Positions 4,266 through 42,209 of a stretch of 42,209 nucleotides of DNA are shown here, one piece after another. This DNA is from Flavobacteriaceae bacterium. Lineage in GTDB: Bacteria > Bacteroidota > Bacteroidia > Flavobacteriales > Flavobacteriaceae. The notes below the pieces were generated by a model. It searched no databases, was not told where the DNA came from, and worked only from the letters and a program-made list of their open reading frames with translations. Positions within the stretch are counted from its first letter, which is position 1. Every line of letters begins with the position of its first letter. The translations under genes were made by a program, and so were the position numbers. The stretch covers positions 1 through 42,209 of the forward strand of contig JALRBW010000057.1 in assembly GCA_023257625.1 (NCBI GenBank). Direction: 5' to 3'.

Positions 4266-5603
4266 TTACTCTAATCTCCTTTTGGTTTGAATTTTTTGTA
4301 CCACAAAATTACCCACAGCTTGTCCCTGTGCAACCCCTTCCTCAATGGCCATCATATAATGTATTCCACCATATAGCCTTGAAATAGCAGCCTCTTCTGA
4401 TGCTTTTAAAAAAGAATCATATTTTCTAATGGGAAGTCCATAGGCTACTTCTGTTGTATCTGTAAATGAAAAATTATCACCATACAAATCGGTGAGTGTA
4501 ACCGCTGCTGCTCTTGAAATAACTGAATGACCACTAGTATATTCAGGAAAAGGAGGAGTTTGTAATAAGGGTAACCATTCCTCGTCGTAGTATTGATTAA
4601 TTAAGGTTTCTGGTCGAACAACTAGTGTATTCCATTTTTCATCCCAACAGCTAATAAAAGCATCAAAAAGTGCAATAGTTACATTTGCATAAGCGTTAAC
4701 TGTATCTTCAAAAGAACTTCCCGCTAGACGGGTAGTAATTGCCGTAATACCAATCCAATGACCTCCAGGAGTAATTTTTTTGGTAGCAAACATTGCATGA
4801 CCTCTATGATGAGTAACGTAGGGATTACAATCCCAAAACTTAGCAATTTCAATCTGTTCTTCACTTAAATTTTTTCCAATATCAAAAACTTGCTTTAATT
4901 GTTTTTGAAATGGGCTCCCCTCAGTTAAATCAAAAGGTAAAGGTGCTTTAGGCTCAAATTGATTTGAAGAATCTAAAACCATTGTTCTAATTTCTTTCCA
5001 ATGAGGTTCAATACCGTCCATATAGTCTGGTGGAGTGGGTTTCCAAAACTGATCTTCTTCTCTTATGGTATATTTTGGATATGTACGTGTTTGATTGTAC
5101 ATATCCTTAGCAGCCCAATCTAATATTGCCTTTGCTACACTTTCACCATACTCCTTAGATGCATTAATTACTGAGCGGGGTACATCTTTTTCTTTCAGTT
5201 GATTCAAAAAATGCTCTTGAAAAGTTTCCATTTTATTTTCTGAAAAGATCAATGTTTTCCCCACTTTATTAAATGCAAAAAGTGAAGAAAGATGAGGATT
5301 TACGAGATCATTATTAGGTTTAGGGATAGATGCTAAATCTTTTACTTGTCCAACTAAAGATGCATATTGCTCTGGAAAAGATTGTGCTATAATTTCATAG
5401 GCTGCAATGGTAGGATAAAGATAAACTCTTGAAGCTACAGGAGGTGAAAAAATATCATAAACAACAATATCTGTAAGATTCTGCATTGCACTTAAAAACA
5501 ATTCAGGTTCTTTTAACTTATCAAGGTATTCGGTGTTTTTTTCAAATGCACAACTTGATAGAAGTAATAGAATTAAAAAAATTAAAAGGCCTTGGGATTT
5601 CAT
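4266..5603 (-). CDS. PAP2/vanadium-dependent haloperoxidase family lipoprotein
   Basis: The 445-residue product starts with a lipoprotein signal (hydrophobic residues 5-17, lipobox LSSC with Cys18), so it is predicted to be exported and lipidated. The C-terminal part has the three motifs shared by PAP2 acid phosphatases and vanadate haloperoxidases: KxxxxxxRP (Lys323, Arg330, Pro331), SGH (357-359) and SRxxxxxH (Ser408, Arg409, His415). These residues bind phosphate or vanadate, and the SGH histidine is the acid-base or nucleophile position. Length and layout fit the vanadium-dependent haloperoxidase-like proteins common in Bacteroidota, but true halogenating activity cannot be told from phosphatase activity by motifs alone. 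It has 134 non-coding bases upstream and is followed after 11 bases by the SLC45-like permease, suggesting one transcript. Confidence 0.85.
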   Translation of the reverse strand: MKSQGLLIFLILLLLSSCAFEKNTEYLDKLKEPELFLSAMQNLTDIVVYDIFSPPVASRVYLYPTIAAYEIIAQSFPEQYASLVGQVKDLASIPKPNNDLVNPHLSSLFAFNKVGKTLIFSENKMETFQEHFLNQLKEKDVPRSVINASKEYGESVAKAILDWAAKDMYNQTRTYPKYTIREEDQFWKPTPPDYMDGIEPHWKEIRTMVLDSSNQFEPKAPLPFDLTEGSPFQKQLKQVFDIGKNLSEEQIEIAKFWDCNPYVTHHRGHAMFATKKITPGGHWIGITAITTRLAGSSFEDTVNAYANVTIALFDAFISCWDEKWNTLVVRPETLINQYYDEEWLPLLQTPPFPEYTSGHSVISRAAAVTLTDLYGDNFSFTDTTEVAYGLPIRKYDSFLKASEEAAISRLYGGIHYMMAIEEGVAQGQAVGNFVVQKIQTKRRLE

Positions 5604-36059: not shown

Positions 36060-37220
36060 TTAAATACTCAAACGGAGTGCAATTTCATGAAGTTTTAGCA
36101 AGGCTCGTGGAACATGAAAACAACCTTTCCATTTTCCTCCTTTTAAGGGGAGTAATACTTCTCCTCTTCTGTTTAAATATCCATACCACTCTCCTTTATT
36201 AATGTGATCTCTAAAATGATTCCATGTATAGTCATGAATCCTTTTAAACCAATCTAAACATTCATTTTTTTGAGTTAATTCAAACCCTTTCAAAAAACAT
36301 ATCATTGCTTCTAAATGGACCCACCATAATTTTTGATCCCATTCTAACTGTTGAGGTGGATGTCCTTCTGTATCTAAAAAATAATAAATTCCTCCGTGTA
36401 AGGAATCCCATCCCTTTTCAATGAGCAGTAGTGCCTTATCAACGCTTTCATTAATCCAGTCTTTTCTTTGATAATTGACCCCAAGGTCCATAATAAACCA
36501 AAGTGCTTCTAATCCATGACCTGGATTGACTAGTCTTCCTTCAAATGTATCAGAATAGTTGCCTTCAAGTGTTGTATTTTCAACAAGAACTTTTTTATCA
36601 TTTATCCAGAAATGATTTAGAATTTCGAAAACACAAAGTTCAATATTTTGTTTTTTTATTTCTAAAGGTATTAGTGTGCCTACTTCGGTGTAAAGATTGC
36701 ATAATATCATTGGTAGAGCAAAATTTTTGAGCGGTCTGTTTTTAGAAATACTCTTATTCCATTTACCTTTTGGATTATTTTTTCTTTTTTCTATTTGCTC
36801 GAAAGTCTTTTCAAAAGCCTCTTTATATTTTTCATTTTTAGTAATTGTAAACATTTTTGAAAAGGCTAGGCAAGCAAAAGTGTAAGAAAAAATGTTATAC
36901 GGCTCAATTGTGGGATTTCCTTGTTGATCAAGTGAAAAATACCAATTAAAATTTCCATCATGTCCTTTTTTTAAGAGAAAATCTGCTCCGTTTTCTGCAA
37001 TATCCAACCATTCTTTATTAGGTTTAATCTTTTCATAAAATGTCCCAAACATCCAAACTTGACGGCATTGAAGCCATATAAATTTATCTGTATCAAACAC
37101 CTGATGCTGTTCATCAATGCAGGTAAAAAACCCTCCATTGACCTTATCTATACTGTGTTTTTGCCAAAAAGGGATAATCTGATCTGTGAGTTCAGCTAAA
37201 TAAAGTGAAGAATAATTCAT
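36060..37220 (-). CDS. AGE-family (N-acylglucosamine 2-epimerase-like) sugar epimerase/isomerase
   Basis: The 386-residue cytoplasmic protein is a member of the AGE superfamily, an (alpha/alpha)6 barrel that epimerises or isomerises sugars at C2. Its N-terminus resembles the renin-binding-protein/GlcNAc 2-epimerase branch (FWQKHSIDKVNGGFFTCIDE, DTDKFIWLQCRQVWMF with Arg53). The barrel histidines are visible: His235 in NPGHGLEA, His302 in KLWWVHLEA and His369 in GCFHVPRAL. Candidate reactions are ManNAc/GlcNAc, mannose/glucose or another C2 change; sequence alone does not decide. It is the last gene of a four-gene minus-strand cluster, 5 bases after the DUF4434 gene. Confidence 0.85.
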   Translation of the reverse strand: MNYSSLYLAELTDQIIPFWQKHSIDKVNGGFFTCIDEQHQVFDTDKFIWLQCRQVWMFGTFYEKIKPNKEWLDIAENGADFLLKKGHDGNFNWYFSLDQQGNPTIEPYNIFSYTFACLAFSKMFTITKNEKYKEAFEKTFEQIEKRKNNPKGKWNKSISKNRPLKNFALPMILCNLYTEVGTLIPLEIKKQNIELCVFEILNHFWINDKKVLVENTTLEGNYSDTFEGRLVNPGHGLEALWFIMDLGVNYQRKDWINESVDKALLLIEKGWDSLHGGIYYFLDTEGHPPQQLEWDQKLWWVHLEAMICFLKGFELTQKNECLDWFKRIHDYTWNHFRDHINKGEWYGYLNRRGEVLLPLKGGKWKGCFHVPRALLKLHEIALRLSI

Positions 37221-37225
37221 ATCAT

Positions 37226-38170
37226 TTATTCTTTTAAATATTCTAAATATCTATTGTATAAATGCCCTGCTTGCAGATAAGAAGATTGTGGACTCATAAA
37301 ATGAGAAAATTCAAATGTAATTGCATCTTCAATACCCGCCTTAAAAGCTGTATCTAATTTGAATCTTAATTTATCCCATTTAATTGGAAGAAATTTAATC
37401 GGCATGTCTCTATCAAAAGTTTCTGAATTAATCCATGAGGTCATTTTATTTTGATCTGCTAATTCTTTATTTACTTTAATAAATTCATAGAGTTGATCAT
37501 AATGCACATGACCATCTTGAAATGCTACAATATCTACAGCAGATCGAATTCCAGAAAATATATCATTCCAACTTTTAAAATGGTCGTCAAGTGTAATTGA
37601 AGATTTCTTTTGAGTGTTTGTTATGTATTGAGATACATTCTTTTCACCGTCAATATAAGGTGAAATTAAAACTGCTAATCCATTAGAAACAGATTTACAA
37701 TGTGACCCCAATTCATGATACAACTCTATAATTTCACCTGAATTATGACTGCATTCTTGAGAGAGATACCATCCTTTAAAGGCCTTTGAGTGTCCATACA
37801 GATGCCAAACCTCACTAATAATTTTTTTATTTAATTGTATTTCTTTTTTGTAGTCTCCATTTACCCAATATTTACCTGAGTCATATAAACCAAAATAAAA
37901 TTCAAAATTATTTTTTTCACAACATTGCAGAAAAAAAGAAACTAAATCCCAATGAGGACGAATAGCTTTTTCTTGCTTTATTAAAATTTCTGAGGGATAA
38001 GTAATCCAATTTTTATACCCACAACGAATTAAGATAACCCTTTTTAGATCCGCTTTTGACATCCAAATGAAATCCTCAGACCATTCTTTTGCTCCCCAAT
38101 TTTGATGTGGTATATCATGACTTATTTCGTCTAAAAAAGTACCCGTGATTCTAATTTTTTTCTTATTCAT
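37226..38170 (-). CDS. DUF4434-like protein, TIM-barrel glycosidase-like, function unknown
   Basis: The 314-residue protein starts with RITGTFLDEISHDIPHQNWG, which I recognise as the opening of DUF4434 proteins, a (beta/alpha)8-barrel group related in fold to glycoside hydrolases. GWYLSQECSHNSGEI (about 142-156) and VDIVAFQDGHVHYDQ place acidic residues at strand ends, where glycosidases keep their catalytic residues (Glu in LSQE; Asp in QDGH). No signal peptide is visible, so it would act in the cytoplasm on an imported sugar or glycoside, consistent with the adjacent symporter. The start overlaps the symporter stop by 8 bases. No activity is established to my knowledge. Confidence 0.7.
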   Translation of the reverse strand: MNKKKIRITGTFLDEISHDIPHQNWGAKEWSEDFIWMSKADLKRVILIRCGYKNWITYPSEILIKQEKAIRPHWDLVSFFLQCCEKNNFEFYFGLYDSGKYWVNGDYKKEIQLNKKIISEVWHLYGHSKAFKGWYLSQECSHNSGEIIELYHELGSHCKSVSNGLAVLISPYIDGEKNVSQYITNTQKKSSITLDDHFKSWNDIFSGIRSAVDIVAFQDGHVHYDQLYEFIKVNKELADQNKMTSWINSETFDRDMPIKFLPIKWDKLRFKLDTAFKAGIEDAITFEFSHFMSPQSSYLQAGHLYNRYLEYLKE

Positions 38171-39992
38171 TGTTTTCCTTACTTTTCAATGGATTGTACC
38201 AAGAATATTTTAAAGTAGCTGTAGTGATGATAAGGATGATAATGGTAATGATAAAATGATCCCATTTTTTAATTAAAAAATAAATAGGCCATACTACAAG
38301 TGTCATTTGCCAAACTATGCCAATGATAACATTAAACATATCTTTTTTAAAGGATAAGTTGGGCTTAAATGAAGGATTTTCCTTTTGAACTTCTTTTAAA
38401 ATAGGGGTCCAAAACCCCCAAGGTCTTACATTTTTATAAAAGGATTTTAGAATTTCAAAATCATCAGGTCTTGATAAAAATGTACCTAATATGCACCCTA
38501 AAATGGAGCTTAAAAATATAATTGGAAAAAAATAGATGTCAATTATTTCTCCAAAGAAAAAAAGCTTAACAGTTGATGCTACAAGTCCAGAGACCATACC
38601 CCAAAAATAACCCTGTCCATTAAAACGCCACCAAACCCATTTTAATACGTTTGCTGCCGTATATCCTCCATATAAAGATGACGTGAGCCAAAGCGTTATT
38701 GTATTGAGTGAAGAAGCATATACGCCAAACAACATTCCTATACCAACAATTAAGATAGAAACAATATATCCGTATTTTACATATGTTTTTTCTTCTTTAT
38801 TAGGAAGTAAATTATTTTTTAGTAAATCATTTACAATATATGCTGGTGCAGAATTTACAACCGCTGCAAAAGTTCCCATAAAGGCCGCGAGAAGACCTGC
38901 TAGAATTAATCCTTTTAAACCAATGGGAACAAATCTCGAAATGGTTTCTGGAAGAATAATTTCAAAATCTAATTGACTCATGGTTTGAAGTTCTGGTGTT
39001 AAATAAACTAAAGCCAAAATGGAAAAAGCAGCAATCATTAAATATCTAGGAGAATACAAAACCAAAAGTGTAAATCCACTCATTTTAGCCGCTTCAAATG
39101 ATGTCTTTGTTGATAGTATTCTTTGCATATCATATCCAGGCACAGGACCTGCTAAACTTGAAAAAAAGCCTTTAAATAGCATCATCATAAAAAGAGGGCC
39201 AATCAGGTTAAAACCGTCATTTTGAATTTTTGAATTTATCTGTGGAATTGTTTTGTCCCAATCTAAATCCATCGTCCAGCCAAAAAAAAGCTCATCCCAA
39301 CCCTTAGGGACAACGGCCATAATTTGACTGTTACCTATTGAATTAAAAACTATAAAGGCAATTACAATGCTTGAAATTGTCATAATCACATATTGAAATA
39401 CTTCTGTAGCAACTACACTGAGTATTCCGCCTTTAAGTGTGTAAAGGGTTGTAATTGAAATTATTATTATGGCATATACATTTTCAGAACTAATAAGTAA
39501 ATCTCCAATTTGTAGAGTCAAATCATACGGCAAAATTGCATTACAGAATTTTCCAATGCCTTCAAAAAAGTAGGCAATAAAACCAATTGAGCTTATAACT
39601 GCAAAGATGATGATAATGTTTTTTGAAAATTCTCCTCCTTTTCCACTGAAACGAGTCATTATCCATGAAGCTCCTGTCATAACATTAGAACGTCGAATCC
39701 ATAACGCCAAAAAAACCATAACAAAAACTTGATTCCATACCGGCCACAACCAGGGAATCCAAGAACTTTTCAGTCCATATACAAATAACAAGGTTACAGT
39801 CCACATTACACCAGAAATATCAAACATTCCTGATGCATTTGATAGGCCAAGTAAATACCATTTAATTTTGTTTCCACCTAAAAAATAGTGATCCAAATTC
39901 TGTTTTGCTCTTCTAGACAATATAAAACCAAGAGCCAATACTACTAAGATGTAAGACAGTATAATTGCTAAATCTAAATTACTTAACTCCAC
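38163..39992 (-). CDS. Sodium:solute symporter family (SSS) transporter
   Basis: This 609-residue inner-membrane carrier has about 13-14 hydrophobic segments and an SSS N-terminus: LALGFILSRRAKQNLDHYFLGGNKIKWYLLGLSNASGMFDISG. The later LKGLILAGLLAAFMGTFAAVVNSAPAYIVNDLLK matches the sodium-site helix. It is longer than the ara operon symporter (539) and clearly different from it, so it probably carries another substrate. GTG at 39990-39992 is the only start that keeps the first helix. It follows the FAD-dependent oxidoreductase gene by 16 bases and overlaps the DUF4434 gene. The substrate is not identified. Confidence 0.88.
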   Translation of the reverse strand: MELSNLDLAIILSYILVVLALGFILSRRAKQNLDHYFLGGNKIKWYLLGLSNASGMFDISGVMWTVTLLFVYGLKSSWIPWLWPVWNQVFVMVFLALWIRRSNVMTGASWIMTRFSGKGGEFSKNIIIIFAVISSIGFIAYFFEGIGKFCNAILPYDLTLQIGDLLISSENVYAIIIISITTLYTLKGGILSVVATEVFQYVIMTISSIVIAFIVFNSIGNSQIMAVVPKGWDELFFGWTMDLDWDKTIPQINSKIQNDGFNLIGPLFMMMLFKGFFSSLAGPVPGYDMQRILSTKTSFEAAKMSGFTLLVLYSPRYLMIAAFSILALVYLTPELQTMSQLDFEIILPETISRFVPIGLKGLILAGLLAAFMGTFAAVVNSAPAYIVNDLLKNNLLPNKEEKTYVKYGYIVSILIVGIGMLFGVYASSLNTITLWLTSSLYGGYTAANVLKWVWWRFNGQGYFWGMVSGLVASTVKLFFFGEIIDIYFFPIIFLSSILGCILGTFLSRPDDFEILKSFYKNVRPWGFWTPILKEVQKENPSFKPNLSFKKDMFNVIIGIVWQMTLVVWPIYFLIKKWDHFIITIIILIITTATLKYSWYNPLKSKENNE

Positions 39993-40008: not shown

Positions 40009-42209
40009 CTAGTTAACTTTCAAATCCCCTGAAATTTCAATTTCTTTATCAAAAGGATTAACTAAATGATCAATTAATTTTGAAAATTCTCCTCTAGTAA
40101 TTACTTGACCAGGATCATAAGATTCAATTATATTCTGAAATTCTTCAATCGAAAAAGTACTTTGCTTTCCATTTAGATGAAATGGATTTGTTTTTAACCA
40201 TTCAAATATATTTTTTTGAGTGGGGAGTTGAGGAAATTCAGAATGTGGCTCCTTTAACCAATCTTCTAAAAATACCTGATTTGGATTCAACGGTTGATCG
40301 GGATAAAACCAAGTTTGATTTTCCCATCCCACATTTAATCCTGTACCTCTTAAAATTCCCGTAGCTCCAATACGTTGATACAATTTAAAATTAGGATCCG
40401 TTTTTGGTACATCTAAATAAGGGAGTATATATCCTCCTTGGTTTAAAAGGTACTTTTGAACTTCTCTCACTGCGACCTCTTTAGGACTTTTATTTTGTAA
40501 TACAGCTAGAGAGGCAATGATCCCAGAGGCATGTCCTAATTGAAGTACTACGGGCTGCAGACGTGTGGTGCCATTTACTAAATTAGAAACAGAAATTGAT
40601 TTTTCAGTAACAATAAAATGATCTACATTTTTAGGAAGTAAAGTTCCTAAAGGAACACTATATGAAGGTACCGGGTAAAAATGTAATTCTGGTAATTTAT
40701 CAGCCTCTGGATGAGCATCATGATGATGGTCAACGGGATAATCACCAACAGCAATTCCAGTACGATATAATTTTTTTTTCTGATCATAAGGGTATGCAAC
40801 ATCATTAATTGTCAATGTTTCTTCCCCTATTACTCTTCTAGACTCTCTATGATAAGGCATTAAAGGAAATCCATCTTTAGTAGGATATTCATCATAAGCA
40901 ATACCCAAATGATCAAAGCCTAATTCCGTTTGCAAATAATAAAGGAATTGAAGAGATTTTAATTTTGCCTTTTCATAGGCAATTTCTCTTTCTTCTCTAG
41001 ACATTTCAATAGCATTTAAATAATAATCATTTCCATTTATAGGCCAATTGATCATGTATTTTTGACCTGGCAACCTACCATAAGTTATCATGTCCTTTTT
41101 AGGCCAAAGTGTTCGATTCATTGGCGTTGAAGGATTACATTTATCGTTTGCCGTTGCACAATAAAAAAGGGAGGGATCATAGCCCTCTGGTTTATTAATT
41201 ATTACCTCCTTTTCATATTCTTTTAAAGTTAAAACATAGGTTAAATCTTGTATAATATCATTTGGTTCTAATGGAGCAATAGCTTCATTATAACGGGCTT
41301 TTGAATCCATTCCTACAAAATAATCTAGCCCTATTTCTTTAGACACGTCACCTAGCTCAGTGGCATCGATTAGTTCTTTTGCTACTATTTTTTTTTGTGT
41401 TTTATCTACCATAACTTCAACCAGCCAACCTTCTTTGACTTTGGTAATAGTTTGCCAATTAGAGTTATACCAAATCTGTACATTTGGAACTTTTGAGACC
41501 ATATTTTTAAAAATTGAATCTCCAACTGAAGGTTCAAATAAATGATTGCTGACCCATCCTGTTTTTAACTCTTCAGAGCTACCATAGCGCTGGATTAGAC
41601 TATCTCTAAATTCACCCCAAAAACCTGAAGGAAGTTTAGTATTCCCATCTACTGCACTTACTCCAGCAGAGGTTAGCATTCCTCCTAACCATTGAAATTC
41701 ACTAAGTAAAATTGTGGAAACTCCCATTCTTCCGCTACTTATAGCTGCTGCTGTTCCTGCTGTTCCCCCACCAATAACTAATATATCTGTTTTTATATTT
41801 GATGAAGATGAACATGAAAAAATACTTCCAATACCTCCTGTTGCCAAAACTACATTAGGCGCTTGCAAAAAAACAAAATTATCTACAATATTCGATTTAT
41901 TAATATGTCCAACTACTCCTTCGCATTTGTTCTCATTTTGAACAATGTGATCAACAGAAATATTTTCTAAAAAAGTAATATGCTCTTGCGATTTTGCATA
42001 AGTTATTAATTTTTGAACAATATGTTTACCTGACTGATCTCCATTAATTTTTAATACTCTTCTTTTTGAATGGGCGGCTTCGATCGATAAAAGAAATTCT
42101 TTAGCCTCATCGCGGTCAAATTGAATATTAATTTTCTCTAGAAATTTTACAACTTCTGGAGCCTCTTTAGTTATAAGCCTAACTGCCTCTTCATTATTTA
42201 ATCCTGAAC
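40009..42209 (-). CDS. FAD-dependent oxidoreductase whose open frame continues upstream into an L-aspartate-oxidase-like segment (partial)
   Basis: The part up to about 41814 (about 600 residues) is an FAD_oxidored-type flavoprotein. It begins with Cys after GSIFS, then SSSSNIKTDILVIGGGTAGTAAAI, the Rossmann GxGxxG site for FAD, then WLGGMLTSAGVSAVDGN, with YHRESRRVIGE and DHHHDAH farther on. The Cys looks like the lipidated residue of a lipoprotein, but no signal peptide precedes it. Instead the frame runs on without a stop from 41815 to the window edge and encodes NadB-like sequence (see the next entry). A TTG at 41868 could start a 619-residue protein, but its first 18 residues are the end of the NadB part, not a signal. 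Relatives are often beside SSS symporters in sugar clusters. Substrate unknown. Confidence 0.8.
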   Translation of the reverse strand, partial: SGLNNEEAVRLITKEAPEVVKFLEKINIQFDRDEAKEFLLSIEAAHSKRRVLKINGDQSGKHIVQKLITYAKSQEHITFLENISVDHIVQNENKCEGVVGHINKSNIVDNFVFLQAPNVVLATGGIGSIFSCSSSSNIKTDILVIGGGTAGTAAAISSGRMGVSTILLSEFQWLGGMLTSAGVSAVDGNTKLPSGFWGEFRDSLIQRYGSSEELKTGWVSNHLFEPSVGDSIFKNMVSKVPNVQIWYNSNWQTITKVKEGWLVEVMVDKTQKKIVAKELIDATELGDVSKEIGLDYFVGMDSKARYNEAIAPLEPNDIIQDLTYVLTLKEYEKEVIINKPEGYDPSLFYCATANDKCNPSTPMNRTLWPKKDMITYGRLPGQKYMINWPINGNDYYLNAIEMSREEREIAYEKAKLKSLQFLYYLQTELGFDHLGIAYDEYPTKDGFPLMPYHRESRRVIGEETLTINDVAYPYDQKKKLYRTGIAVGDYPVDHHHDAHPEADKLPELHFYPVPSYSVPLGTLLPKNVDHFIVTEKSISVSNLVNGTTRLQPVVLQLGHASGIIASLAVLQNKSPKEVAVREVQKYLLNQGGYILPYLDVPKTDPNFKLYQRIGATGILRGTGLNVGWENQTWFYPDQPLNPNQVFLEDWLKEPHSEFPQLPTQKNIFEWLKTNPFHLNGKQSTFSIEEFQNIIESYDPGQVITRGEFSKLIDHLVNPFDKEIEISGDLKVN
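41819..42209 (-). pseudogene. nadB: N-terminal half of L-aspartate oxidase (NadB-like), joined in frame and truncated
   Basis: Reading the minus strand from the window edge gives about 130 residues with no stop: NNEEAVRLITKEAPEVVKFL, FDRD, EAAHSKRRVLKINGDQSGKHI, FLENISVDHIV, CEGVVG and finally VVLATGGIGSIF. These match, in order, the first-domain landmarks of L-aspartate oxidase (the H-x-x-R-R segment, the GD-x-x-G segment, the ATGG flavin-domain strand). The rest of NadB, with the catalytic capping domain, is absent; the next residues belong to the unrelated lipoprotein flavoprotein. The EAAHS/GDQSG version resembles alphaproteobacterial NadB more than the GGHS form I expect in flavobacteria, from memory. 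The 5' end lies outside the window. Confidence 0.75.

Follow-up and report, generated by a model that had tools for sequence, protein, structure and literature searches.

The window, i.e., the whole stretch of DNA analysed here (42,209 b), is a complete contig (C26) of an assembly (G000) of 75 contigs and 1.93 Mb that is 90.91% complete and 0.16% contaminated. Its last part holds a flavoprotein gene with its neighbours and, up to the very end of the contig, a piece of a gene for L-aspartate oxidase (NadB):

36060–37220, minus strand: N-acylglucosamine 2-epimerase family protein, neighbour of the flavoprotein gene (PF07221)
37226–38170, minus strand: DUF4434 protein, neighbour (PF14488)
38163–39992, minus strand: sodium:solute symporter (SSF), neighbour (PF00474)
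40009–41817, minus strand: genuine FAD_oxidored lipoprotein gene, on C26 without its 5' end (signal peptide) (PF12831, 3.9e-86)
41700–41829: also present as the beginning of contig C49, with 129 of 130 positions identical; beyond it, C49 carries the true upstream sequence
41818–41829, minus strand: 12-nt word GGAAGTATTTTT (GSIF) common to both parents and site of the join; longest word shared by the nadB locus L026 and the end of C49
41830–42209, minus strand: very probably a foreign tail, from the interior of a SAR11-type nadB gene (approximately residues 73–199 of 533), assigned by its identity to CP.15 and by L-aspartate oxidase models

As stated in a preliminary description of this DNA, an uninterrupted frame leads on the minus strand from the NadB stretch into the FAD_oxidored lipoprotein; it extends from 42207 to 40009, comprises 732 aa without a stop, and its translation around the join reads ...QAPNVVLATGGIGSIF|SCSSSSNIKTDILVIGGGTAG... 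Two L-aspartate oxidase models of NCBIfam (PRK07512.1, 2.7e-31; TIGR00551, 6.2e-22) cover the frame from residue 2 to approximately residue 130–140, and Pfam FAD_oxidored covers residues 141–587 at 3.9e-86, with all of its positions (1–416 of 416) aligned, so that the domain is full-length. The frame stays open across the join because GGAAGTATTTTT reads G-S-I-F in both genes. It had been proposed that GSIFS fits either side, which applies to GSIF but not to the final serine, as this residue belongs to the lipoprotein side only and is replaced by alanine in the SAR11 relatives.

The NadB piece makes up the last ~395 bases of the contig and is truncated at both edges, at one by the contig end and at the other by the join. 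It had been taken for the N-terminal half of NadB, but corresponds to residues 73–203 of the 533-residue protein of its closest relative, the Pelagibacteraceae MAG CP.15 (locus L026, VTPD01000022.1), and the first 72 residues are missing because the contig ends there. Over 41815–42207 the two align without gaps, 119 of 131 amino acids (91%) and 332 of 393 nucleotides (84.5%) being identical; the gene in L026 starts at 477 and the match lies at 693–1085. Unlike the piece on C26, the CP.15 protein has its N-terminal 72 residues, continues with HTTNPRDIYGEG and is complete. As CP.15, with the above DNA identity, is the closest sequence and not the SAR11 donor itself, the word shared by the true parents may exceed 12 nt. 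The loci of three other Pelagibacteraceae MAGs are identical to the piece at 101–102 of 131 residues (77–78%), and together with L026 and one Fimbriimonadaceae MAG (31%) they form the five loci returned by the search for relatives, a method restricted to close ones that can miss entries close to the window's own genome. In all four SAR11 loci (L026–L029), GSI(F/Y) is followed by A-(H/Y)-TTNPRDIYGEG, in line with the earlier expectation that NadB normally continues into a TTNP-type segment.

In 38 out of 59 genomes related to that of the window, the NadB piece has a match, with at most 38% identity. A nadB gene native to the window's genus was rejected as its source, since same-genus matches show 29–38% identity versus 91% to SAR11; the SAR11 origin suggested in the preliminary description is borne out by the Pelagibacteraceae MAGs as nearest relatives. 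Within the window's own assembly the piece has no second match at E ≤ 10 besides C26. GC content (0.311 in the tail versus 0.339 in the flavoprotein gene) is unhelpful for telling the origin.

Judged as a member of the NadB family, the piece is a fragment: it reaches 78–81 bits over 130–136 residues, whereas the curated TIGR00551 score for full-length NadB is 452.75, and it spans only positions 70–199 of the 489 in this model, short of the N-terminal FAD-binding region and the C-terminal part. When the entire assembly was searched with TIGR00551 for a full NadB, the hits were the C26 fragment and two parts of a single 671-aa frame on C53. All stayed below the cut-off, which is a strict one, as 13 of 14 control genomes matched and 5 exceeded it. 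While no full-length NadB was found in this 90.91% complete assembly, matches to the fragment, in frames of 519–553 aa, occur in 31 of the 36 same-genus genomes.

The 5' end that the flavoprotein gene lacks on C26 is found on another contig. When its own assembly was searched with the flavoprotein, a second match, 100% identical over the first 38 residues, was obtained at the start of C49, whose positions 1–130 equal 41700–41829 of the window save for one mismatch at 41794. This difference is synonymous (an isoleucine codon, ATA/ATT in C26/C49), lies 24 bases from the shared word and could be a strain variant or an error. Past the overlap, the coding strand of C49 reads up to ATGGAGGAATATAGAAATGG... 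and gives MEEYRNGSCIILKGVIFFLLFGSIFS before the cysteine, 26 residues with a hydrophobic run that by eye resemble a lipoprotein-type signal. The stretch is absent on C26, as had been noted for the join; its presence on C49 contradicts the earlier alternative of a real fusion gene that lost its signal peptide. Upstream on the same strand of C49, Pfam identifies an FG-GAP/UnbV_ASPIC gene and a SusD-like gene, from the latter of which we take the window's genome to be Bacteroidota-type, as carriers of such genes presumably are.

The flavoprotein was also searched for in 60 genomes, consisting of G000 and 59 relatives, 36 of which belong to the same genus. A close homolog with 62–66% identity is present in five of these 36 (G018, G012, G034, G003, and G026), while matches in 10 further genomes have 34–39% identity over ~50 residues only. 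The alignment includes 596–597 of 601 residues in four of the five and is cut after 405 in G026. All five possess a hydrophobic N-terminus of their own followed by a cysteine, the part that is replaced by the NadB piece on C26 and present on C49; both G003 and G026, which print identical first 110 residues, are included in this count. In the four regions read (G018, G012, G003, and G034), the flavoprotein gene is preceded by a PAP2-like gene and this in turn by an FG-GAP-like gene, the PAP2 assignment resting on Pfam for G018 and made by eye for the others. The PAP2-like gene of these four relatives (L049, L050, L051, and L052) has no counterpart at the corresponding position on C49 (L031:1–207). 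Elsewhere in the window, at 4266–5603, an ORF was named by eye as a PAP2-like lipoprotein. On the downstream side, G018, G003, and G034 resemble C26 in having a symporter-like ORF next to the flavoprotein gene; in G018 and G003 this is followed by DUF4434-like and epimerase-like ORFs, and the contig of G034 ends before this point. The ORFs of the relatives were assigned by eye. In G012 the flavoprotein gene is followed by an opposite-strand ORF that is not a symporter, and the downstream order thus varies within the genus. C49 and C26 together therefore represent a locus of the same kind as in the relatives, without the PAP2-like gene.

The same join in an independent genome, which would tell against a chimera, was not encountered: with a 510-base query across the join and at most six candidates scored for each of 100 genomes including G000, the only full-length match was C26 itself. 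On C48 of G026, a 36-base match of 86% identity includes the shared word; its length is insufficient for the join itself. Comparing the taxa on either side, as had been proposed earlier, placed the tail with Pelagibacteraceae and the remainder with a Bacteroidota-type genome, judged by the SusD-like gene on C49. The two sides thus differ in parentage, and the parents continue differently beyond the join, one into the TTNP segment and the other into the signal-like start and the FG-GAP gene.

Both ends of all 75 contigs (150 ends, one contig having N at both) were compared for overlaps with a minimum of 60 b and 98% identity. Of the resulting 26 end-to-end overlaps, 18 are flush, five of these being exactly 141 b long, and eight, C26 included, have an overhanging tail of 48–386 b on at least one side. 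The seven further tailed ends (C42, C34, C43/C25, C53, C1, C30, and C63) may also be chimeric. In the pairs C1/C58 and C30/C45 the tail diverges and the other contig has the longer open frame, and the 386-b tail of C42 gave no match when searched against a phage collection. Contig overlaps that are near-identical without being exact suggest that the assembly is a metagenome bin with strain variants rather than a single amplified cell.

Based on these sequence comparisons, 41830–42209 is almost certainly a chimeric contig end, in which a scrap of a SAR11 nadB gene adjoins a Bacteroidota-type flavoprotein gene, and not part of a fusion gene, because C49 holds the intact 5' end, the two sides differ in parentage and a 12-nt word is shared. 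This agrees with the preliminary description, which had favoured a chimera of two marine genomes. In the course of its formation, a Pelagibacteraceae nadB piece of ~380 bases would have been joined at the 12-nt word to the 5' part of the flavoprotein gene. MEGAHIT has a default largest k of 141, and its extension of contig ends is a local assembly in which k is far smaller, beginning at 11, so that 12 shared nucleotides would suffice. The assembler probably made the chimera: an overlap of exactly 141 b is seen in five pairs of contig ends, and a MEGAHIT-type local extension at small k may have accepted the shared word. Alternatively, and with considerably lower probability, the two fragments would have been joined physically at the 12-nt microhomology before sequencing, in library ligation, in PCR or during multiple displacement amplification, and the assembler would have reproduced the product correctly. 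A short microhomology at the join also fits template switching, and the tail of ~380 b would be on the order of a library insert; however, the seven other overhanging tails suggest systematic assembly behaviour, and amplification from a single cell accords poorly with the near-identical contig overlaps, which point to a strain-variant bin.

Readings in which the join exists in a living cell fare far worse. One of them, a recent transfer or rearrangement from SAR11 into Bacteroidota at this site with C49 derived from the unrearranged strain, would fit the single synonymous base at 41794, since C26 and C49 may derive from two strains. It is nevertheless very improbable, as it requires illegitimate recombination between unrelated organisms to have fallen exactly at a contig end, and other ends in the assembly have overhanging tails too. 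Slightly less credible still is a minority Bacteroidota-type strain whose flavoprotein gene truly received the SAR11 nadB fragment at its 5' end, by recombination at the 12-nt microhomology. As to a real fusion gene, in which the flavoprotein's signal peptide would have given way to a NadB fragment, the continuity of the frame across the join and the membership of both parts in FAD-dependent families speak in its favour. This candidate was rejected because C49 of the same assembly holds the 5' end that C26 lacks, with its signal-like start, and its probability is close to nil: the join lacks a full-length match elsewhere within the scope of the above search, the first 72 residues of NadB are missing only through the contig end, and the related genes, two of them alike in their first 110 residues, all have an N-terminus of their own.

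For marine MAGs, potential chimerism has been put at ~11% by GUNC with default settings, and the authors consider that it may stem from flaws of assembly and binning algorithms (PMC11247762). In that study chimerism is estimated for whole genomes from genes, whereas in the present case the foreign part amounts to ~380 b at one contig end of a genome listed with 0.16% contamination.

Taken together, the join is of no biological weight and has slight value as a warning that a short word common to two genes at a contig end can mimic an in-frame gene fusion. Left untrimmed, C26 would yield a spurious "fusion protein" of 732 aa, and nadB would be called wrongly for a genome without a match over the NadB cut-off. 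If the join was made by the assembler, no cell carries or expresses the fusion.
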